Below, one piece after another: positions 1,098 through 6,574 of a stretch of 38,602 nucleotides of DNA. The DNA comes from Longimicrobiales bacterium (lineage in GTDB: Bacteria; Gemmatimonadota; Gemmatimonadetes; Longimicrobiales; RSA9). The translations under genes were made by a program, and so were the position numbers. The DNA lies in contig DATHUY010000062.1 in the NCBI GenBank assembly GCA_035461765.1, positions 1-38,602 on the forward strand. Reading direction: 5' to 3'. Every line of letters begins with the position of its first letter. Position 1 is the first letter of the stretch. Below the pieces are notes generated by a model. That model did not search any database. It was not told where the DNA came from and saw nothing but the letters and a program-made list of their open reading frames with translations.

Positions 1098-1910
1098 TCA
1101 TCGCGGGTTGCGCGGCACGGACGAGAATTCGCCGATGAGCGCGGCCGGATCCGCCGCACGCATCAGCGCCTCGCCCACCAGCACCGCATCGACGCCTGAC
1201 GCCGACAGGCGCTCGACATCCGCCGTGGTGTGAATGCCACTCTCACCGACGAGCACGACGTCGGGCGGAAGGTAGCGCGCGAGCCTCTCCGTTACGGCGA
1301 GGTCCGTGGTGAACGTCGCCAGGTCCCGGTTGTTCACGCCGACGATGCGGGCGCCCGCCTTCAGCGCCCGCTCCGTCTCCTCCTCATCGTGCACCTCCAC
1401 CAGCGCCGCGAGCTCGAGCTCCTGTGCGAGCGCGTGGAAGTCGGCCAGCTCGACGTCGTCCAGGATGCGCGTGATCAGCAGTACCGCCGACGCGCCCGCG
1501 GCCCGCGCCTCGTACACCTGCACCGCGTCGATCGTGAAGTCCTTCCGCAGCAGCGGAACCGCCACCGCGTCGGACACCGCCTCCAGATCCGACAGCGTCC
1601 CGCCGAAGAAATCACGGTCGGTCAGGACGCTGATGCCCGCCGCACCGGCGCCGGCATACGCCTCCGCCACCGCGACCGCCGGCGCGTCCGTCCGGATCTC
1701 ACCCGACGACGGCGAGCGGCGCTTCACCTCGGCGATCACGCCTACGGTGGGCCGCGACCGGAGCGCCTCTTCGAACCCGGGCGCAGGCGCCCGCGACTCC
1801 GCCCGGCGGCGCACGCCGCCGGCATCCCGCCTCAGCGCCGTCACCTCCCGGTGCTTGACTTCCACGATCTGGCGGAGCACGCCGGACAAATCTCTTGCGT
1901 TTCGGTTCAC
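1098..1910 (-). CDS. trpC: Indole-3-glycerol-phosphate synthase
   Basis: TrpC closes the indole ring by decarboxylating and dehydrating CdRP to indole-3-glycerol phosphate. The 270-residue protein has the expected VIAEVKRRSPSSG motif with the catalytic lysine, VLTDRDFFGG, LLRKDFTID, the VGVNNRDL motif and VGESGI near the end. The reading starts at a GTG (1910). A second in-frame GTG at 1880 (residue 11) would also give a normal TrpC N-terminus. No good ribosome site precedes either. A TATACC box ends 6 bases before the 1910 GTG, so a leaderless mRNA is possible. The start lies inside the lexA promoter region, so transcription of the two genes is physically linked. Confidence 0.95.
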   Translation of the reverse strand: MNRNARDLSGVLRQIVEVKHREVTALRRDAGGVRRRAESRAPAPGFEEALRSRPTVGVIAEVKRRSPSSGEIRTDAPAVAVAEAYAGAGAAGISVLTDRDFFGGTLSDLEAVSDAVAVPLLRKDFTIDAVQVYEARAAGASAVLLITRILDDVELADFHALAQELELAALVEVHDEEETERALKAGARIVGVNNRDLATFTTDLAVTERLARYLPPDVVLVGESGIHTTADVERLSASGVDAVLVGEALMRAADPAALIGEFSSVPRNPR

Positions 1911-1943
1911 CTTCGGGTATACTGCCTTTCGGTTGTTCTTCGG
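1895..1943 (+). promoter_or_regulatory. lexA promoter with a pair of operator-like direct repeats
   Basis: TTGCGT (1895-1900) and TATACT (1918-1923) are separated by exactly 17 bases, a good sigma-70 type promoter directed at lexA; the expected start is near 1930. Two 16-base direct repeats of the form TTCGGTT-N4-CTTCGG lie at 1901-1916 and 1928-1943. They match at 13 of 16 positions and flank the -10 box, an arrangement that suits repressor binding. The -35 box overlaps the first codons of the divergent trpC. LexA usually represses its own gene, but the repeat does not match the E. coli or B. subtilis SOS box, so assigning it to LexA is inference. Confidence 0.6.
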
Positions 1944-2632: not shown

Positions 2633-2758
2633 ATGCGAAAGCGCACGTTCATGGTGGGTCGTACGACGGGCCGTAACACACTGGTGGTGTTCGTGAGTCT
2701 GATGAAGAGCCCGATCGCGGGGCCGTTCACGGTGAGGGCGGTCGTTTCGTCCAACTGA
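2633..2758 (+). CDS. Unrecognised 41-residue small protein downstream of lexA
   Basis: This ORF begins one base after the lexA stop (TGAGATG) and is preceded by AGGAGGT at 2620-2626, a near-perfect ribosome site 7 bases from the ATG. That site lies within the last lexA codons, so translation is probably coupled to lexA. The product starts MRKRTFMVGRTTGRN, is basic at the N-terminus, has a short hydrophobic stretch (TLVVFVSLM) and ends VRAVVSSN. I do not recognise it as any family. The hydrophobic run is too short for a confident membrane segment. It could be a real SOS-induced small protein or a short non-functional reading that exploits a chance ribosome site. The ribosome site and spacing are the main evidence. 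Confidence 0.55.
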   Translation: MRKRTFMVGRTTGRNTLVVFVSLMKSPIAGPFTVRAVVSSN

Positions 2759-6406: not shown

Positions 6407-6413
6407 CTCAGTC

Positions 6414-6542
6414 GGACGCGGAACCCACTCTGCAGAACGGCTCGGGCCCGCATGGCCGGGACGCGCGGAGACATGCGGAACCCCGCTCCCGGTGACATTC
6501 GCATGTCCCGGCAGGCCGTTCTGCAGAATGGGTTCCGCGTCC
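6414..6542. repeat. Foldback repeat, copy B
   Basis: Two 28-base arms (6414-6441 and 6515-6542) match as an inverted repeat at 27 of 28 positions. They begin GGACGCGGAACCCA and contain a PstI-like CTGCAG and ACGGC. Inside, CCGGGAC (6456-6462) pairs with GTCCCGG (6505-6511), with a further ACATGCG/CGCATGT stem within. The outer arm closely matches that of the element at 2797-2928, so the two are members of one family. The inner stem has the opposite polarity here. It lies just after kbl and before the truA promoter, so it could end the kbl transcript. Confidence 0.8.
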
Positions 6543-6574
6543 GCTGCCTCCGACGCCTCCGGCTGCGGGCGGCG

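Follow-up and report, generated by a model that had tools for sequence, protein, structure and literature searches.

The lexA gene of a Longimicrobiales bacterium is followed by a 41-codon open reading frame (ORF) that is almost certainly a real, conserved protein gene and that represents, by sequence comparison, a new family of small proteins in fixed relation to LexA, unnamed within the libraries searched. In all likelihood, this gene is co-regulated with lexA. The most likely mechanism, to which we assign a probability of roughly 0.4, is that its product is a soluble accessory factor that would bind LexA (or RecA) and adjust repressor activity or self-cleavage.

A small gene directly behind lexA

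The window analyzed here, a stretch of 38,602 nucleotides (contig DATHUY010000062.1), belongs to a Gemmatimonadota metagenome genome. Its lexA gene (positions 2023 to 2631, + strand; 202 amino acids) matches TIGR00498 with an E value of 5.2e-61, and relatives of the encoded LexA were retrieved. The gene ends in ATC AGG AGG TAT TGA, followed by a single G and then by the ATG, at position 2633, of the small gene (2633 to 2758, + strand). The 41-codon translation, MRKRTFMVGRTTGRNTLVVFVSLMKSPIAGPFTVRAVVSSN, carries the family motif F.VGR...GPW.LRAVV. The LexA codons for R-R-Y form the ribosome-binding site AGGAGGT (2620 to 2626, + strand), with AGGAGG spaced 7 nt from the ATG. The ORF coordinates, the ribosome-binding site embedded in the end of lexA, and the start one base past the stop are exactly as described in a first-pass annotation made from the sequence alone.

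That annotation had also held the ORF to be translationally coupled to lexA, which is the case in the family of the window, f1, and in a few other families; elsewhere, the two genes are as much as 276 nt apart, and the small one usually has a ribosome-binding site of its own. In nearly all f1 genomes, the ATG or GTG start overlaps the lexA stop or lies within 4 nt of it, the exception being one locus with a start 69 nt from the stop. The last LexA codons contain GGAGG at 7 of the 9 loci labeled as coupled versus 4 of the 101 others; the Fisher P value of 3e-7 overstates independence because these loci are mutually related, and it was computed before relabeling of three of those four others, which are in fact coupled too. 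We infer that in f1 the small protein is made in step with LexA via translational coupling. Most f1 members (L014 and L016 to L023) carry a second LexA-like protein elsewhere that is about 30% identical.

Selection on the ORF was estimated at several distances. A second, near-identical strain contig of the assembly also carries it, and the two copies show 8 differences, all of them synonymous and at third codon positions, with 0 nonsynonymous differences. Comparison of the ORF with that of the next relative, L025, gives 8.5 synonymous and 12.5 nonsynonymous changes (dN/dS of ∼0.4). For 11 pairs of closely related members taken together, the pooled pN/pS is 0.22, and third-position changes are the most frequent class in each of the 11 pairs. 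These values indicate that the protein is under purifying selection. The comparison of lexA 3′ flanks proposed in the first-pass annotation, which had named the lack of a conserved ORF after lexA in relatives as evidence against a gene, thus came out in favor of the ORF: relatives keep it, with amino acids conserved over synonymous change. The two contigs are near-identical strain versions of the region (LexA is 99.5% identical between them), and the 4.86% contamination of the assembly may partly be strain duplication.

Promoter, operators, and a shared transcript

A putative lexA operon promoter was read from the sequence at positions 1895 to 1923 (+ strand), with a −35 element TTGCGT (1895 to 1900), a 17-nt spacer, and a −10 element TATACT (1918 to 1923), and the same arrangement recurs 5′ of lexA in relatives. 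Two LexA-operator-like direct repeats, TTCGG-N6-TTCGG, are present on the + strand, one within the promoter spacer (1901 to 1916) and the other just past the −10 element (1928 to 1943); two copies around the −10 element are the typical layout at Gemmatimonadota lexA loci. The repeat is found 5′ of lexA in 106 of 126 loci, including the Gemmatimonadota loci with an intact upstream region, and the remaining 20 comprise 17 Acidobacteria-named and 3 truncated loci. Across 4.68 Mb of the genome, it occurs 14 times, versus 6 times for the reversed control. These sites, on three further contigs and in the window, include positions upstream of recA, dnaE2 (two copies), and a probable SbcD-like exonuclease, names that are our own reading of the sequence without a family search. 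TTCGG-N6-TTCGG is therefore best described as the probable LexA operator of Gemmatimonadota. It shares a direct-repeat structure and an 11-bp period with the alphaproteobacterial LexA box, GTTC-N7-GTTC, and differs from it in the half-site (PMC8565304). That study names no Gemmatimonadota motif, and the literature search found no paper on LexA motifs or a lexA-linked small protein in this phylum.

Downstream of the small gene, a terminator-like hairpin (2843 to 2882, + strand; −31.3 kcal/mol, z score of −6.0) followed by UUUCUUU marks the probable end of the operon, and L025 has a similar hairpin and U run at the equivalent place after its small gene. A simple sigma-70 promoter and terminator scan of the window listed neither the lexA promoter, the −35 element of which is weak and falls below the scan threshold, nor the terminator, in which the U run has too many interruptions or the stem is too irregular; folding was subsequently used to examine the hairpin. 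None of the 126 flanks has an operator in the gap separating the two genes, long-gap genomes included, so that the small gene shows no LexA operator of its own there and the lexA promoter is its only evident control. Given the shared promoter with its operators and the hairpin that follows, the two genes are expected to be cotranscribed as a single LexA-repressed message induced by DNA damage. All four elements, from the promoter through lexA and the small gene to the hairpin, thus apparently constitute a single operon, and the small protein would be repressed by LexA and rise with it after DNA damage. Induction together with lexA had been predicted from gene position; the two operators flanking the promoter, the lack of one before the ORF, and the hairpin after it lend this prediction support.

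The terminator is enclosed by one copy of a dispersed inverted-repeat element (2797 to 2928, without assigned strand) that lies outside the small gene and is part of its context. The same element is found at positions 6413 to 6543 of the window. Its arm, GCCGTTCTGnAGAAnGGGTnCCGCGTCCG, occurs 68 times genome-wide, in many cases as facing pairs about 102 nt apart, with 0 matches for a control pattern, and the element resembles a REP- or MITE-like family.

Distribution of the family and linkage to lexA

To define the family, LexA relatives were fetched regardless of the presence of the ORF, and an iterated profile was built from the ORFs behind lexA. Of 370 Gemmatimonadota genomes searched with the profile, 67 contain members, about 40 to 45 residues long with the motif F-x-[VA]-G-[RK] ... 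P-[IF]-P-G-P-[WF]-x-[LV]-x-A-V; in some genera, the members are divergent and retain only the first half of this motif. In 64 of the 66 places examined, the gene immediately follows lexA in the same orientation, at a distance of 2 to 276 nt. Of the other two, both weak matches, one is cut by a contig end, and one is unlinked, in a genome with lexA on a different contig. When 80 loci chosen by LexA were searched in six frames (875,000 residues), all 24 profile matches fell within 450 nt after lexA and none elsewhere, and the reverse strand of the 126 lexA 3′ flanks gave 0 matches. No convincing unlinked copy was found among the 66 placed matches or the 80 LexA-chosen loci.

When Gemmatimonadota loci were selected only by LexA (61 in total), a member was present in 23 and absent from 38 (about 60%), with a clean split in scores (at least 24 bits for members and about 7 or less for the rest); the small protein would thus not be required for LexA function in general. 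On the LexA tree, part of the rows of which were chosen for carrying the gene, its presence requires 10 changes versus 32 for shuffled labels. This pattern is compatible with largely vertical inheritance and with losses in certain clades, for example, Palauibacteraceae. Nine Palauibacteraceae-type loci without the small gene have a conserved, noncoding-looking block of ∼90 nt right after lexA (GTTGACGGAGGACCGCTCTC...CCGTCGGGGCGGAGGTTCCCGTC). Behind lexA, ten Acidobacteria loci have another conserved ORF (KQINFTIVPDD...RTYANFCAIAHTPFDFTL), which we take to be DUF3467-like, and the lexA upstream regions of these loci have a different common motif, TTCGCCTTTCTTTTGCG.

Beyond the phylum, a search of 199 genomes from the phylum of an Acidobacteria genome in the set yielded two borderline matches without lexA alongside (21 bits; E of about 1e-3), near chance expectation for that many genomes. 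A phage or plasmid origin was also considered, and tblastn with one member gave no match. Sequence searches against Pfam, NCBIfam, PHROGs, and PDB returned no family match, which bears out the initial impression that the ORF has no recognized family. Over 52 members, Pfam yielded no SulA and only two unrelated chance matches at E values up to 1.

Candidate functions and comparison with known systems

The conserved positions of the small protein are F6, [VA]8, G9, [RK]10, a hydrophobic run at 18 to 21, and P27-[IF]-P-G30-P31-[WF]32-x-[LV]-x-A36-V37. G9, G30, and P31 are nearly invariant, conservation between families extends down to about 20 to 30% identity, and the protein from the window has the rarer residue, F, at position 32. 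The protein looks soluble: the hydropathy maximum over 19 residues is 1.46 in the window and 0.54 in the median, and 1 of 52 members exceeds 1.6, with no member making a persuasive membrane protein. AlphaFold2 predicts a hairpin of residues 6 to 11 and 16 to 21 with an extended tail (pLDDT of 75, pTM of 0.33), and a second member was modeled with the same hairpin (pTM of 0.28). The fold is probably a beta-hairpin with a GPW tail, and we judge the protein to be a small module for binding, not an enzyme.

According to the preferred reading, the small protein would bind LexA (or RecA) through the beta-hairpin and the GPW segment and, when bound, would adjust the repressor activity or self-cleavage of LexA, such that the SOS system could reset cleanly as new LexA accumulates. 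Strict linkage to lexA over an order is expected of a LexA partner. The shared promoter, the ribosome-binding site made of LexA codons, purifying selection, clustering on the LexA tree, the lack of a membrane segment, the hairpin model, and the precedents of phage GIL01 gp7 and Acinetobacter DdrR also count in favor of this reading; the low confidence of the fold model (pTM of 0.33), the lack of a member at about 60% of the LexA-chosen Gemmatimonadota loci, and the lexA linkage of division inhibitors elsewhere (PMC6851548) count against it. A more specific form of the proposal is tentative: a chromosomal LexA cofactor, whose gene shares the lexA operon and whose synthesis would keep pace with that of LexA across much of an order, may modulate DNA binding or the RecA-stimulated self-cleavage of LexA, so that the SOS switch of these bacteria would be a two-protein system.

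The lexA linkage of division inhibitors points to the strongest competing possibility, a somewhat less likely one, that the product is an SOS-induced effector. It would then most probably be a cytosolic checkpoint protein causing a pause in division or replication, as a functional counterpart of SulA, SosA, YneA, DivS, and ChiZ. Such inhibitors are recurrently encoded beside lexA in Gram-positive bacteria (PMC6851548), and LexA-type operators are present at the shared promoter here. However, these Gram-positive neighbors have a single membrane span, whereas only 1 of 52 members passes the hydrophobicity limit; there is no Pfam match to SulA; and effectors are free to move to an operator of their own, yet no convincingly scored unlinked copy was found. 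A checkpoint role would make the product a nonmembrane solution to the problem solved by SosA and YneA. A role in nucleic acid repair or in an unrelated pathway that merely uses the SOS promoter is unlikely. The protein is mostly basic, with a median net charge of +4 and a charge of +7 for the protein from the window, but this charge varies from 0 to +10 among members, and conservation is strongest at hydrophobic residues and at Gly, Pro, and Trp, not at basic ones. More improbable still, translation itself rather than the product could matter, with ribosomes that traverse the 3′ end of the lexA message stabilizing this message or keeping it away from the transcript of the convergent trpD just downstream; a short ORF at the end of an mRNA and coupled to lexA translation is compatible with such a role, but the conservation of the amino acids, including the nearly invariant glycines and proline, and the pooled pN/pS of about 0.2 argue against it. 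A chance ORF without a product, for which the annotation had allowed and which the shortness of the frame and the abundance of open frames in high-GC DNA would favor, is contradicted by purifying selection and conserved position in all conservation tests and can be practically dismissed.

Gemmatimonadota are a common soil phylum, and their SOS response is apparently undescribed in the papers that could be searched. The present data supply its likely operator and several probable targets, together with a new small-protein family tied to lexA. Among known systems, the Pseudomonas lexA-sulA operon has a similar layout, with sulA behind lexA and co-directional with it. SulA differs in being several times longer and in having a Pfam family, with no Pfam match for the protein described here. 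SosA, YneA, DivS, and ChiZ are SOS division inhibitors encoded beside lexA (PMC6851548). The small gene resembles theirs in being apparently damage linked, adjacent to lexA, poorly conserved between groups, and, computationally, under a promoter with a LexA operator; it differs in orientation, sosA being divergent from lexA and the gene here co-directional, and in that those inhibitors have one membrane span and its product none.

The closest functional analogies are with proteins that act on the repressor. Phage GIL01 gp7 binds LexA, enhances its DNA binding, and inhibits its self-cleavage (PMC4551915), and the LexA binding proposed here is modeled on this very small component of a LexA circuit. 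The gene for gp7 is phage encoded, whereas the gene here is chromosomal and lies in the lexA operon; a search of PHROGs, which may or may not include a gp7 family, gave no match. DdrR of Acinetobacter is a corepressor co-regulated with UmuDAb; it is genus restricted and encoded beside a LexA-like repressor, with the same operator controlling both (PMC7273328). Its gene is divergent, beside UmuDAb, whereas the gene here is coupled and lies behind a true LexA. Co-regulation of a small protein with the repressor, common to both systems, is found here computationally, in the operon structure, and any relatedness of the proposed mode of action to that of gp7 or DdrR is by analogy. If the small protein acts on LexA, this would be a case of a dedicated LexA partner encoded by a cellular genome, beyond those of phages and UmuDAb systems. 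Small damage-linked genes beside lexA were already known, and what is new is one that appears soluble, co-directional, and, in part of the family, coupled to lexA.
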